From the NCBI GenBank assembly GCA_022361295.1, contig JAKSBD010000153.1, positions 1 through 42,779 on the forward strand: 42,779 bases of DNA. Reading direction: 5' to 3'. Source of the DNA: Bacteroidales bacterium. GTDB lineage: Bacteria > Bacteroidota > Bacteroidia > Bacteroidales > Marinilabiliaceae. Under the pieces are notes generated by a model. It saw only the letters and a list, made by a program, of their open reading frames with translations, was not told the DNA's origin and searched no databases. Below, piece by piece: positions 10,679-42,779 of this stretch (position 1 is its first letter; every line of letters begins with the position of its first letter). A program made the position numbers and the translations under genes.

Positions 10679-11235
10679 TATAGTTGATAAGAGCCATTTA
10701 TTATACCAAACAAGGGACTATTAAATCTTTCGAATGCTGTATTTAATAGCTTATACAAACTCGATTGTCTGATATTTTCCTCGTTTAATACCGGCTTACT
10801 TAAAACTGCCATTTCAAATTTATCTTTTGGGGCACTAAGTATCAGGTGCGGCAGTGTATTCATTGTTGCATCTACAGGATATTCCCCCTCCTTAATAATT
10901 CCTTTTTCCAGTAATAATGGATGAGCTTCAAAAAAGTTAAAAGTATTATCACCCAAAAACAAATGAACGCTTAATCTTAAACTCAGGGGTATCACATAAA
11001 AGAAGTGAAACTTCTTTCGATCATCAACCAATGATATCGTCACCCTGTTTTCAGATCGGTTAACAGGCGAAAACTTAATATTCCATTCAAGATTATTGAA
11101 ATCTTTCAGTTGTTGCTTTACGGCATATATAAAATTTAATCGTGGCAGAGCAATAATCTCAAACTGCTCATTTCCTGCAAAGCGTTGTTTCAAGGCACCT
11201 ATACCTTCTTTACTTAAACTAACTGTCTCAGACAT
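10678..11235 (-). CDS. Uncharacterized 185-aa protein (operon with split 5'-nucleotidase)
   Basis: ORF overlaps the 3' end of 11228-12163 by 8 nt; no recognisable family. Confidence 0.7.
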   Translation of the reverse strand: MSETVSLSKEGIGALKQRFAGNEQFEIIALPRLNFIYAVKQQLKDFNNLEWNIKFSPVNRSENRVTISLVDDRKKFHFFYVIPLSLRLSVHLFLGDNTFNFFEAHPLLLEKGIIKEGEYPVDATMNTLPHLILSAPKDKFEMAVLSKPVLNEENIRQSSLYKLLNTAFERFNSPLFGIINGSYQL

Positions 11236-12139
11236 GGTAAATTGAATTGACTAAAGCAACAGATTTTTTATGATTCGAACTCAACGTCAAATCAAGTCGA
11301 CCTAAACGTAATCCTCCCCAGCCCGCCTGACTAACAATTACCTCATCACCGTCAAGGTTTACAATACGGTCTGGTTCATCCATAAACGTATGCGTATGCC
11401 CACCTAATATCACATCAATATTTCGTGTATTTTGAGCAACAATTACATCTGAAACTTTCTCATATTTATATTTGTATCCCAGGTGGGACATTGCAATAAC
11501 AATATCACAGTTTTCTTCTTGCTTTAATTTTTGGGCTGATTTATTAGCTTCTTCGATTGGTTCCTGATAAACAGCTTCTTTATACGACTTAGGATTAACT
11601 AAACCAGCCAGTTCAATACCAAGACCAATCACTCCAATTTTTAACGGACCTTTTTCAATAATTTTAAAAGGGATTGTCAGGCCATTCATAACCGATTCGG
11701 AAAAATCGTAATTGCTGCAAACAAATGGAAACCTTGCCTTCTTAACATTCTCAGCCAGGGCTTCAATACCATTATCAAATTCATGATTCCCGAGCGTTGC
11801 TGCATCGTAGCCCATTTTATTCATCAAGTCAATCTCAAGCTTCCCCTTGTACACGTTAAAGTAGGGGGTTCCCTGAAAAATATCGCCACAATCCAGTAAG
11901 AGAACATTCTCATGCTCTTGCCTGATGCTGTTTATTAATTGAGCACGGCGGGCAAACCCTCCCTGACCAGGCCATCTTGAATGACTCTCAGGAAATGGAT
12001 CAATCTGACTATGAACATCATTCGTATGTAAAATGGTTAATTTAGCATCTGGTGCATTACAGCTTTTCAAAAAAGGACTTAAACCTATAGCAGATGCTCC
12101 CAGCACTGTCTTCTTAATAAAACTTCTTCTACTCTGCAT
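11228..12139 (-). CDS. 5'-nucleotidase N-terminal (metallophosphatase) domain protein, Tat signal
   Basis: Start chosen at MQSRRSFIKK (12139) rather than 12163; LTILHTNDVHSQIDPF, LGNHEFDNG, ILGGHTHTF; twin-arginine plus LKSC lipobox-like segment. Confidence 0.92.
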   Translation of the reverse strand: MQSRRSFIKKTVLGASAIGLSPFLKSCNAPDAKLTILHTNDVHSQIDPFPESHSRWPGQGGFARRAQLINSIRQEHENVLLLDCGDIFQGTPYFNVYKGKLEIDLMNKMGYDAATLGNHEFDNGIEALAENVKKARFPFVCSNYDFSESVMNGLTIPFKIIEKGPLKIGVIGLGIELAGLVNPKSYKEAVYQEPIEEANKSAQKLKQEENCDIVIAMSHLGYKYKYEKVSDVIVAQNTRNIDVILGGHTHTFMDEPDRIVNLDGDEVIVSQAGWGGLRLGRLDLTLSSNHKKSVALVNSIYHV

Positions 12140-12887
12140 AATATATCCTTTTATCCAATTCACTATTAACCTTTCTTCCTTCCACCGAAAGAGCCTTTAT
12201 GTGCTCAATGATGGCATCACGCACTTTTAACCCTGTACCTTCTCGTTTTATGGCTTTTCTAAACACTTCGAAATGATCACCACCATCTGCCAGATAATCT
12301 GAAGTGGCAACAATATAAGTTCTGTCTTCGAGTGCTTTATTATTAACTTTTATATTAATTGCCTTTCCTTCTTTAATTCCAAATGAAGCGCCAGATATAC
12401 CGTCTCCTCCAACACTGGCCATAAAGTTAAATAGCATCTCCATTTGTTCTTTTGTCATTGTCAGAAAAACAATTTCATTTTCAAAAGGCATCAATTGATA
12501 GATGTTTTCAACGGTAATTTCCCCCATTTGCAAAGGAATTCGCAAACCTTTTACATTGACAATGCTTACATCAACCGGTTCAAAACCATCAAGATTGTTA
12601 CATTCTTGTCGTACTAAATCAGTAACAAAATTTGAAAGTAGTCCCTCAGGAAAGCCACCGCTTAATTCCCGCTCGGCTACACCAATAGTTTTTTGCATTT
12701 CAGCTTGCAAACTATCACGATAAGGCTGAATTAACATTTCTATAGCAGAACTTTCGCCGACCAAACTGTCGATCACGACATAGTCATTCGAACTGCTTTT
12801 AACTCTATAATCAGTGTTCTGACATGCTGAAAACAGCACAACAACAAGAACATAAATACTGACAATCTGTACATTAATGTATTTCAT
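12129..12887 (-). CDS. 5'-nucleotidase C-terminal domain lipoprotein
   Basis: 252 aa; lipobox VLFSAC; GGFPEGLLSNFVTDLV, QLMPFENEIVFLTMTKEQM, YIVATSDYLADGGDHF. Confidence 0.92.
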   Translation of the reverse strand: MKYINVQIVSIYVLVVVLFSACQNTDYRVKSSSNDYVVIDSLVGESSAIEMLIQPYRDSLQAEMQKTIGVAERELSGGFPEGLLSNFVTDLVRQECNNLDGFEPVDVSIVNVKGLRIPLQMGEITVENIYQLMPFENEIVFLTMTKEQMEMLFNFMASVGGDGISGASFGIKEGKAINIKVNNKALEDRTYIVATSDYLADGGDHFEVFRKAIKREGTGLKVRDAIIEHIKALSVEGRKVNSELDKRIYYAE

Positions 12888-32715: not shown

Positions 32716-32745
32716 TTGTTTTGATTCTGCGATAAATTATCTTTG
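32716..32745 (+). promoter_or_regulatory. Candidate Bacteroidota promoter: TTG-N19-TATCTTTG
   Basis: TTG at 32716-32718, TATCTTTG at 32738-32745; ATG at 32774. Confidence 0.5.
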
Positions 32746-32773: not shown

Positions 32774-34072
32774 ATGAAGAAAAAGGCTACATTTCTTTTG
32801 TTAGCAGGCATTGTCATTGTATTACTGCGTTTTTTGTTGATAAAGGCGGACAATTACACATCAACAAACGAATACTGCAACAGCTGTCATGTGCATGACC
32901 ATGCTCATACTTCATGGGTGGAATCTGTTCACTATAACACACCTCCACATCTGAAAAAAGCCAGATGTGTCGACTGCCATTTACCCCCTAAAGGTCATGG
33001 CTATTATAAAGAAAAGCTTAAAGCCGGATGGCGTGATTTTTATGCCTTTCATTTTAAAGACAGCACTGAGTATAACTGGTCTGAAAAGACACAAATTGAA
33101 CAAGCCCGCCATCATACATATAAACAATCGTGCTTACTATGTCATCCTAAATTATTTCCGGTGAAGCTATCTGAAAATGGTGAAATGGCCCATTGGCACT
33201 ACACCCAGCATAAGAATGAAATGCACTGTATCCAGTGCCACATCAACATTGGCCATGGCAATAAAACCAAAACACACAACCTGTCTATTCTAAGAAACAG
33301 AACGCAGGTTGATACCACATTTACCGAAGCGGCAACAATAGATACTTTTGAGACATACACCGAAACCATACCAGGCAGTGATGTCTCTTTTAAAATGATG
33401 GCCGTTGAAGGTGGAGTTCTTCGCACACAACAAAAAGACACACTAATAAAAAGTTTTTTTATAGGTGAGATCGAAGTCAGTTGGGATGAATACCTGCTTT
33501 TTCTGTCCGAAACAGAAGGTGAAGGACGAAATGAGAATCAGGAACTGGATGGAATTTCCGGAGCAACACCACCATGGGGAAATCCCGACCAAGGCTGGGG
33601 TTTTGGCAAACGGCCTGCTATTACCATGACACACCATGCAGCCCTTGCATATTGCCGCTGGCTATCATTTAAAACAGGAAAAACCTACCGCCTGCCAAGT
33701 GCATTGGAATGGGAATTTGCCTCTACAAAAGCCATAAAAAATACAGGAATTCACCATAAAATTGCCAACACTAATAATACACAAACAATAGAACCAACTT
33801 CCATACAAGCTGATTTGCTTGGAGTGAAGCATTTGTTTGGTAATGTCAAGGAGTTTTGCAGTGATGCTGCCAACGCTAACGAATACATCATAAAAGGAGG
33901 CTCCTTTAAAACTGACATAAAAGAGCTCTCTCCTCAATGGTCAGAAACGACGCAACATAAACAATGGTTGAAAACCGATCCGCAAATTCCAAAGAGTATC
34001 TGGTGGTATTCTGATTGTAATGATGTTGGATTTAGAGTAATTTTAAGCTATCAACCTGAGCAAATAAATTAA
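32774..34072 (+). CDS. Membrane-anchored tetraheme NapC/NrfH-like cytochrome c fused to an FGE/SUMF1-like domain
   Basis: 432 aa; N-terminal TM helix; CNSCH (aa 35-39), CVDCH (65-69), CLLCH (120-124), CIQCH (152-156); C-terminal SUMF1 signatures FFIGEIEVSWDEYLLFL, ALAYCRWLSFKTGKTYRLPSALEWEFAS, LFGNVKEFCSD, IKGGSF, DVGFRVI. Confidence 0.92.
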   Translation: MKKKATFLLLAGIVIVLLRFLLIKADNYTSTNEYCNSCHVHDHAHTSWVESVHYNTPPHLKKARCVDCHLPPKGHGYYKEKLKAGWRDFYAFHFKDSTEYNWSEKTQIEQARHHTYKQSCLLCHPKLFPVKLSENGEMAHWHYTQHKNEMHCIQCHINIGHGNKTKTHNLSILRNRTQVDTTFTEAATIDTFETYTETIPGSDVSFKMMAVEGGVLRTQQKDTLIKSFFIGEIEVSWDEYLLFLSETEGEGRNENQELDGISGATPPWGNPDQGWGFGKRPAITMTHHAALAYCRWLSFKTGKTYRLPSALEWEFASTKAIKNTGIHHKIANTNNTQTIEPTSIQADLLGVKHLFGNVKEFCSDAANANEYIIKGGSFKTDIKELSPQWSETTQHKQWLKTDPQIPKSIWWYSDCNDVGFRVILSYQPEQIN

Positions 34073-34074
34073 AT

Positions 34075-35373
34075 ATGAGCTATTCCCGTCGCGACTTTAT
34101 CAACAAAAGCCTATTGGCTGGCAGTCTCACTTTAGCAACAGGCACATTAAGCTGCAGGCAAAATAAAAAGACATCAAACACTTTAACAAAAGCCCCTGAT
34201 GGAAAAACTTTAAAGGCGGGATTAATAGGTTGTGGTTCAAGAGGAACCGGAGCTGCCCTTAACTTCCTTGATGCAGGTCCTTCACTTGAAATAGTTGCAT
34301 TGGGTGATGCATTTAATGATAAACTTAATAACTGCAGGGCCAATTTAAAAGCGGAAAGAAACATTGAGGTCGACTCTGAAAAATGTTTTGTTGGCTTTGA
34401 TGCCTTTGAAAAAGTTATAGATGCCGGTATTGATATTGTTATACTTGCAACACCTCCCGTTTTTAGACCGAAACATTTTGAAGCAGCCGTAAAAGCCCGT
34501 AAACATGTTTTTATGGAAAAGCCTGTAGCGGTAGATCCGGTTGGGGTACGTTCCATTTTAATCAATGGTATCAGAGCTAAAGAAATGGGCCTGTCGGTTG
34601 TTACCGGCACTATTAAACGACATCAGGAAGATTATCTGGCTACATACAACAAAATTAAGCAAGGGGCAATTGGAGCAATCACCTCGGGTAATTGCTATTA
34701 TAATCAGGGTAAACTTTGGCACGTTAATCCCAATGCAGAATGGAGTGAAATGGAAGCCATGGTTCGTAACTGGGTTAACTGGACCTGGTTATCTGGCGAC
34801 CATATAGTTGAGCAACACATTCATAATCTGGATCTGATGAATTGGTTTATCGGAAGTCACCCCATTAAAGCTATCGGCTTTGGCAGTCGTCAGCGAAGAA
34901 CAACAGGTGACCAGTATGATAACTTTAGTGTTGATTTTATTTACCCCAACAATGTTCATGTACATAGTATGTGTCGACAAATAAATGGCTGCTCTACCAA
35001 TGTGAGTGATTATTTAAGAGGAACACATGGCTACACCAATTGCGAAAACACTATATTTAATCCCCAGGGGCAGGTCAGATGGAAGTATCCTTTAAATGAA
35101 GAACAGCAAAACGATCGCTGGCACTTTTTCTGGCGCGCTTTTATTCAGGAACATGTCGATTTAATTACGGCTATCAGAACAAAGCAACCAATTAATGAAG
35201 CTAAACAAATAGCTGAATCGTCGTTAACCGCTATTATGGGGCGCATTTCAGCATACACCGGTAAAGAAGTAAGCTGGGATGAAATGCTGAATAGTGAAAT
35301 AAAGCTTGGGCCGAAACATTTTGTGATGGGTGATGTAACTATCAATAAAGCAATTCCAGTACCCGGAAAATAG
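34075..35373 (+). CDS. Gfo/Idh/MocA family oxidoreductase with Tat signal (probable Tat lipoprotein)
   Basis: 432 aa; SRRDFINKSLLAGSLTLATGTLSC; Rossmann LKAGLIGCGSRGTGAALNFL; KHVFMEKPVAVDP; DHIVEQHIHNLDLMNW. Confidence 0.93.
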   Translation: MSYSRRDFINKSLLAGSLTLATGTLSCRQNKKTSNTLTKAPDGKTLKAGLIGCGSRGTGAALNFLDAGPSLEIVALGDAFNDKLNNCRANLKAERNIEVDSEKCFVGFDAFEKVIDAGIDIVILATPPVFRPKHFEAAVKARKHVFMEKPVAVDPVGVRSILINGIRAKEMGLSVVTGTIKRHQEDYLATYNKIKQGAIGAITSGNCYYNQGKLWHVNPNAEWSEMEAMVRNWVNWTWLSGDHIVEQHIHNLDLMNWFIGSHPIKAIGFGSRQRRTTGDQYDNFSVDFIYPNNVHVHSMCRQINGCSTNVSDYLRGTHGYTNCENTIFNPQGQVRWKYPLNEEQQNDRWHFFWRAFIQEHVDLITAIRTKQPINEAKQIAESSLTAIMGRISAYTGKEVSWDEMLNSEIKLGPKHFVMGDVTINKAIPVPGK

Positions 35374-41927: not shown

Positions 41928-42779
41928 ATGCAAACCCAAAGCCCAATTAACAGGTTGTTAAAAGCAACTTGCCTTGCGTTATTCGCTATAATGTTGCCTG
42001 GTTTTATTGTAGGACAAGATGCTCCTACTGCCATTCCTGATATTATTAACGTTAACGAAGGAGAAACTGCTACAGTTTTATCAGATGGTTCAACTTCTGT
42101 ATTAACAAATGACAGTGACCCAAACAGTGATCCGTTAACGGCTGCATTGGTTGACAATGTCAGTCATGGATCTTTAACCTTATTTTCAGATGGAACTTTC
42201 TCATATACCCATGATGATTCTGAAACTACAAGTGACAGTTTCACATACACGGCTAATGATGATGAGGGATTAACATCAGCCACTACAACAGTTACAATAA
42301 ATATAACACCCCAAAATGACCCGCCGGTGGCAACTGATGATGCTGCTACTGTACTTGAAGGTGCTTCTGTGAACATCGATCTGACAGATAATGTAAGTGA
42401 CGACGGCACTGTGGTCTTCTCTACTTTAGCTTTTGGTGCCGCAACCAATGGATCGGTTACCAATAATAATGACGGTACAATAACCTATACCCATAATGAT
42501 TCTGAAACAACTGGTGATAGTTTCACATACACGGTGAATGATAACGACGGAGCAACATCCAATACGGCTACAATCACTATTACTGTAACACCTGAGAATG
42601 ACCCGCCGGTGGCAACTGACGATGCTGCTACTGTACTTGAAGGTGCTTCTGTGAACATCGATCTGACAGATAATGTAAGCGACGACGGCACTGTGGTTTT
42701 CTCTACTTTAGCTTTTGGTGCCGCAACCAATGGATCGGTTACCAATAATAATGACGGTACAATAACCTATACCCATAAT
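41928..42779 (+). CDS. Secreted tandem-95/VCBS-like repeat protein (adhesin-type), truncated at window edge
   Basis: ATG at 41928 with 284 open codons to the window end; signal peptide (LLKATCLALFAIMLPGFIVGQ) then repeats NDPPVATDDAATVLEGASVNIDLTDNVSDDGTVVFSTLAFGAATNGSVTNNNDGTITYTHNDSETTGDSFTYTVNDNDG. Confidence 0.9.
   Translation, partial: MQTQSPINRLLKATCLALFAIMLPGFIVGQDAPTAIPDIINVNEGETATVLSDGSTSVLTNDSDPNSDPLTAALVDNVSHGSLTLFSDGTFSYTHDDSETTSDSFTYTANDDEGLTSATTTVTINITPQNDPPVATDDAATVLEGASVNIDLTDNVSDDGTVVFSTLAFGAATNGSVTNNNDGTITYTHNDSETTGDSFTYTVNDNDGATSNTATITITVTPENDPPVATDDAATVLEGASVNIDLTDNVSDDGTVVFSTLAFGAATNGSVTNNNDGTITYTHN
42315..42779 (+). repeat. Near-identical 282-bp (94-codon) tandem coding repeat
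   Basis: aatgacccgccggtggcaactga... starts at 42315 and again at 42597; the visible 183 nt of the second copy differ at about 3 positions. Confidence 0.93.

Follow-up and report, generated by a model that had tools for sequence, protein, structure and literature searches.

The window, a 42,779-nucleotide stretch of Bacteroidales DNA, contains two adjoining genes (32774–35373) whose products probably act together as a periplasmic oxidoreductase that links a sugar (or polyol) to menaquinone. The first gene encodes a membrane-anchored tetraheme cytochrome fused to an FGE/SUMF1-fold domain, and the second encodes an exported oxidoreductase of the Gfo/Idh/MocA family (GFO). We lean slightly towards this full model, and it is likely that the fusion relays electrons between the GFO and quinone. 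The model builds on the following observations: the fusion itself, its pairing with the GFO, a flavinylation-type motif, the linkage of ApbE to unfused relatives, repeated linkage to cytochromes, and quinone-site residues.

Identification of the fusion gene

The fusion gene is a single uninterrupted ORF of 432 codons (32774–34072, forward strand), with CxxCH motifs at aa 35, 65, 120 and 152, exactly as listed in an earlier sequence-only reading. That reading had also placed a NapC/NrfH-like cytochrome and an FGE fold in one protein, and profile searches agreed: Pfam matches above the curated cutoffs were obtained for Cytochrom_NNT at aa 3–162 (71.2 bits versus 24.1, E 1e-19) and for FGE-sulfatase at aa 220–367 (50.6 bits versus 23.3, E 3e-13). 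Homologues collinear over the whole length were found in many genomes of the same genus, family and order. A homologue search and a scan of genome contigs gave 41 distinct Bacteroidales fusions in which the layout was conserved, and all four CxxCH motifs were kept in each of them (41/41). As such homologues recur in other genomes, the fusion is not an assembly join, and the 41 collinear fusions rule out a frameshift artefact as well. It is practically certain that the fusion is genuine.

Among the genomes searched, the NrfH-FGE fusion was found in Bacteroidales only. Its distribution is patchy within the genus of the window, where four genomes (G001, G002, G007 and G009) are without it; carriers in Parabacteroides were P. 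acidifaciens and Parabacteroides sp. ZJ-118. Two size classes were seen: the window protein is one of the short fusions, of about 430–460 aa, and the other fusions have 480–550 aa with a fuller FGE domain. A protein of about 850 aa with a LamG domain (family F2) is often encoded upstream of the gene pair in long-form loci (L036–L051). Sulfatase-like genes lie near the short-form pair in three genomes of the same genus (L027–L029), and none was found around the pair in the window. A TAnnTTTG box at 32738–32745 was considered as a promoter and set aside, because the window shows no enrichment of this box (38 copies against an expected 60).

Two other features of the window were recorded. A 5′-nucleotidase appears to be split at 11228–12887 on the reverse strand into a Metallophos gene with a Tat-like start and a lipoprotein-like 5_nucleotid_C gene, the latter carrying a chance-looking DGISGAS. 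An open-ended ORF with near-identical VCBS/cadherin-like repeats (41928–42779) runs off the contig.

The cytochrome half and the putative quinone site

An N-terminal membrane anchor helix was located from the sequence at about aa 5–22 (32786–32839, forward strand, as are all window features below), and both structure models have a helix at residues 2–29. It is followed by heme motifs CNSCH (aa 35–39; 32876–32890), CVDCH (aa 65–69; 32966–32980), CLLCH (aa 120–124; 33131–33145) and CIQCH (aa 152–156; 33227–33241). A location at the periplasmic membrane face with a link to redox chemistry, as the sequence-only reading had it, is supported. In an alignment with Desulfovibrio NrfH (2j7a, chain C), weak at E 0.2, Lys81 and Asp88 (33014–33037) fell on NrfH Lys82 and Asp89, the residues tied to its menaquinol site (PMC4683180, PMC10654088). 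Lys81 is conserved in 41/41 fusions and Asp88 in 40/41.

The single N-terminal anchor, the four CxxCH motifs and the equivalents of Lys82/Asp89 are shared with the NrfH/NapC/CymA family (PF03264). The fusion differs from that family in its C-terminal FGE-fold domain, in having a GFO rather than NrfA as partner, and in the heme-1 motif. The latter reads CxxCHxH, with His41 (32894–32896) present in 41/41 fusions at the position where NrfH has its ligand Met49; the NrfH form CxxCHxM was found in 0/41. This substitution predicts an altered proximal ligand at heme 1, whose potential is probably lower, and because His41 replaces Met49 the quinone chemistry may differ too. A role as nitrite reductase small subunit was ruled out: nrfA is absent among the neighbouring genes, the fusion scored 73.3 bits against a cutoff of 134.2 with the NrfH equivalog model, and an ordinary NrfH-type protein with CxxCHxM (CHIM) is encoded elsewhere in the same genome (L053).

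The FGE-fold half

The FGE/SUMF1-fold domain spans about aa 195–425 (33356–34048), and the SUMF1 fold expected of the C-terminal half was recovered by Pfam, structure modelling and Foldseek. It is shortened in the window protein relative to family members of 510–550 aa, and carries the family signature TDPQIPKSIWWYSD with its invariant positions at aa 401–414 (33974–34015). The structure model of the window protein itself was poor (pLDDT 61), and that of a longer orthologue from Maribellus sp. YY47 (L057) was used in its place. The AlphaFold model of this orthologue (pLDDT 83.7; 90–98 in the FGE core) comprises an N-terminal helix, the heme-motif region and the FGE core. Foldseek comparison of it with the PDB retrieved PvdO and FGE structures at E 1e-17, and PorK too; PvdO was the closest FGE-fold relative both by profile and by fold.

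In FGE a cysteine pair comes after GGS. It is missing from the window protein (GGSFKTDIKEL), as the sequence-only reading had correctly remarked, and replaced in every homologue examined. The earlier view that the domain is unlikely to be a canonical formylglycine generator is supported. In fold and sequence signatures the domain resembles the FGE/SUMF1 family (PF03781), which includes PvdO and PorK/GldK. It differs in the loss of the catalytic cysteine pair, in an extra D-x-x-[ST]-x-[AP]-[ST] loop, and in being fused or linked to cytochrome, GFO and ApbE. Three further FGE-fold proteins are encoded in the genome, and two of these resemble GldK and GldJ.

The GFO partner gene

The second gene (34075–35373) starts 2 bp downstream of the fusion and encodes a GFO of 432 aa, identified by Pfam and by its motifs: a Tat signal (SRRDF), a Rossmann GxGxRG, the catalytic-lysine motif EKP at aa 148–150 (Lys149; 34516–34524), and D242-H243-x4-H248-x-H250-N251-x-D253. 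The sequence-only reading had mentioned neither this gene nor the D-x-x-S-G-A-T motif at aa 259–265 of the fusion. A GFO gene neighbours the fusion in 40/41 cases, lying upstream in L061 and missing in L049, and the Tat RRxF is present in 64/66 GFO partners. The whole genome has 15 GFO and 4 FGE matches.

Unfused FGE homologues of about 320–350 aa adjoin a Tat-GFO too, in Flavobacteriaceae, Chitinophagaceae, Pedobacter, Planctomycetota, Verrucomicrobiota and Acidobacteriota. In a first set, in which fused and unfused loci were counted together, a GFO followed the FGE in 43 of 59. In a second set, taken from whole genomes solely on the basis of a protein profile, 17 of 20 unfused loci had a GFO as next gene; neighbouring genes played no part in retrieving the loci. 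Phylogenetic trees placed the fused FGEs in one clade (SH-aLRT 99) and the GFO partners of the fusions, including the upstream GFO of L061, in one group (support 100). The partner GFOs of fused and unfused FGEs fell together, and the BT_2158-like GFOs encoded in these loci lay apart from them. We are highly confident that FGE and GFO form a functional pair. From the shared unfused pairing and the trees, the pair is probably older than the cytochrome fusion.

The named models nearest to the GFO are inositol dehydrogenase and glycoside 3-dehydrogenase, and it probably acts on a sugar, glycoside or cyclitol. Some long-form loci also contain 3keto-disac_hyd (DUF1080), ThuA and AP_endonuc_2 genes and a BT_2158-like GFO. 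The genes that flank the pair in the window include no DUF1080 or ThuA gene; as the locus here is a two-gene unit only, its assignment to a 3-keto-glycoside pathway is weak. An exported sugar dehydrogenase is common to this locus and to the glycoside 3-dehydrogenases LacABC (membrane-bound) and BT2158 (GFO type) (PMC9007349, PMC11300592). The direct partner GFO, however, forms a clade separate from the BT_2158-like proteins, and an FGE-heme relay would stand here in place of the LacABC arrangement.

A candidate flavinylation motif

ApbE recognises the motif D-x-x-[S/T]-G-A-[S/T] and modifies its last residue (PMC12052999). The FGE-fold half contains a match, D259-G-I-S-G-A-T265 (33548–33568), in which Thr265 is the predicted FMN acceptor. 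Across the 41 fusions the D, G and T are invariant (41/41), position 262 is S or T in 40/41, and position 264 is occupied by A in 24 fusions and by P in the other 17. In the wider FGE group (64 members) the D is kept in 64/64 and the last residue is T in 47 and S in 17. The 17 fusions with P and most unfused relatives, in which Pro replaces Ala and Arg often replaces Gly, depart from the canonical form, and this counts against the model. Many unfused members read D-A-V-T-R-P-T, which lies outside the strict ApbE motif, and the ApbE linked to such members may have its own specificity. Small departures are natural, since the FMN_bind proteins of the window genome vary themselves (DAITAAT, DGISGGT, DALTGAT, DAVSGAT, DAVSGAT and DSISGAT). 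The background rate of the motif was 2 in 1173 ORFs. It is missing from the other FGE-fold proteins of the genome, and FGEs outside the GFO group have at most a look-alike, D-R-F-A-x-A-[ST] (4/11). The motif loop is disordered in the model (pLDDT about 52). Lack of the cofactor could account for this, and the result is neutral as to flavin binding. Covalent FMN on Thr265 is fairly probable.

Known extracytosolic electron carriers flavinylated by ApbE (FMN_bind, DUF2271, DUF3570, Flavodoxin_4 and FMN_red) have the canonical D-x-x-[ST]-G-A-T motif in common with the fusion; further likenesses are ApbE in the loci of relatives, export, and adjacent redox partners (PMC8238504, PMC11334425, PMC12052999). 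In contrast to these carriers, flavin on an FGE fold is a prediction: these three papers mention neither FGE nor formylglycine, and no coupling of ApbE with SUMF1 or FGE-fold ApbE substrate was found in the open-access literature searched.

Linkage of ApbE to FGE genes

The third gene to recur beside unfused FGEs was the one for the FAD:protein FMN transferase ApbE (PF02424, E 1e-57 to 1e-72). Across 80 loci 18 ApbE genes were found, and 18/18 lay within 4 genes of the FGE; in L096 and L118 the FGE was missed by the ORF caller, and ApbE abuts or overlaps its called position. Several ApbE-linked FGEs (L073, L094, L097, L105 and L112) do not have a GFO as next gene, so it is the FGE, not the GFO, that ApbE goes with. 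The GFO as ApbE target was rejected, with the strict motif present in 0/66 partners. The 291 ORFs of the ApbE-linked loci gave chance-looking motif matches only and no convincing alternative substrate.

In 7 of 25 whole genomes (50 ApbE genes) ApbE lies within 3 kb of the FGE, where 0.083 would be expected (P 5e-12), and in three genomes (G061, G183 and G292) the FGE-linked ApbE is the only one. The mere presence of ApbE in a genome is uninformative, being near-universal with FGE (25/25 genomes) and without it (18/20). No ApbE gene was found near any fused locus, a point that weighs against the model. The fusions would therefore need an unlinked ApbE, of which the window genome has two.

Repeated heme links in the FGE group

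One or two N-terminal PSCyt1-type CxxCH domains are present in FGE relatives from Verrucomicrobiota (L087, L094, L097, L100 and L103), with Pfam assigning PSCyt1 or Cytochrom_C in L094 and L103. A planctomycete ORF of 1376 aa (L095, 4467–8597) combines DUF7133/GSDH (sorbosone-dehydrogenase-like), HEAT, cytochrome c, ThuA and FGE domains and is followed by a GFO. As judged from these architectures, c-type heme linkage arose more than once.

In some Flavobacteriaceae (L073, L077, L112, L193 and L195) a YceI gene follows the FGE instead of a GFO. ApbE is often next, and the FGE loci L193 and L195 also encode a diheme protein, of PSCyt type as read from its sequence. These loci form a second FGE-flavin-heme arrangement without a GFO as next gene.

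Proposed electron relay and alternatives

In the proposed relay, the GFO would be exported folded through the Tat system with NAD(P) already bound, as its Tat signal suggests given known Tat and GFO biology. It would oxidise a hydroxyl of a sugar-like substrate, and the hydride would stay on the bound nicotinamide. Having ceased to be a modification enzyme, the FGE-fold domain would dock the GFO by a predicted contact, and Thr265 in its D-G-I-S-G-A-T loop would bear an FMN placed there by ApbE. Single-electron transfer from bound NADH to heme is difficult and kinetically poor without a flavin. The flavin would solve this step by accepting the hydride (two electrons) and releasing single electrons into the four hemes, from which they would pass to a menaquinone site near heme 1 (Lys81/Asp88). 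Transfer from NAD (−320 mV) to menaquinone (−74 mV) is downhill, and on these standard potentials the direction from substrate to menaquinone is favoured.

An unlikely alternative is that the FGE-fold domain serves as a docking scaffold only, holding the GFO at the cytochrome without flavin, and that electrons pass directly or through a diffusible carrier. The constant GFO pairing fits this, as do the Pro and Arg deviations of the motif in many members and the absence of the cysteine pair, which is likewise absent in PorK, judged non-enzymatic (PMC12421860). A scaffold leaves unexplained, however, both the ApbE genes beside FGEs and the strict conservation of D and T/S at either end of the motif, and it would retain the poor transfer from NADH to heme.

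The sequence-only reading had instead proposed a new quinol-driven enzyme modifying a protein or small molecule. The fold does include enzymes (FGE, EgtB and PvdO), PvdO being the nearest, but we consider this reading improbable. Besides the missing cysteine pair, no Pfam match to the N-terminal DinB domain of EgtB, OvoA and SenA was found in the fusion protein, because its N-terminal half is the cytochrome. The NCBIfam models for PvdO, OvoA, EgtB, GldK and SenA gave 22–32 bits against cutoffs of 350–500 (360–500 for EgtB, OvoA and PvdO; 23.1 versus 350 for the GldK equivalog). Canonical FGE, EgtB/OvoA, PvdO or GldK function is ruled out by these missing residues or scores, and a modification enzyme would leave the GFO pairing and the ApbE linkage unexplained. 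An electron-relay and docking module for the GFO is favoured over it because of the gene neighbourhood and the ApbE-type motif.

Least probable of all is the reductive direction, in which menaquinol would feed the hemes, the FGE domain and the GFO to reduce a periplasmic keto-sugar: NapC/NrfH proteins usually oxidise quinol and 3-keto-glycoside pathway genes occur in long-form loci, but transfer from menaquinol to NAD+ is uphill unless the potential of the bound nicotinamide is strongly shifted.

Significance

Bacteroidota and Planctomycetota abound in exported Gfo/Idh/MocA enzymes, whose electron outlet outside the cytosol is generally unclear. The locus offers a concrete and testable outlet, a flavin-heme relay to the quinone pool. 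More broadly, the FGE/SUMF1 fold may provide a new class of ApbE-flavinylated covalent-FMN carrier that passes electrons from Tat-exported, nicotinamide-bound GFOs to c-type hemes in Bacteroidota, Planctomycetota and Verrucomicrobiota, with the Bacteroidales fusion as a sugar:menaquinone entry to respiration; on this proposal our judgement is evenly balanced. If true, it would extend the range of known ApbE substrates by a new fold and account for some ApbE genes without a known nearby substrate; it would also give a different role to proteins whose present annotation is formylglycine-generating or SUMF1 enzyme.
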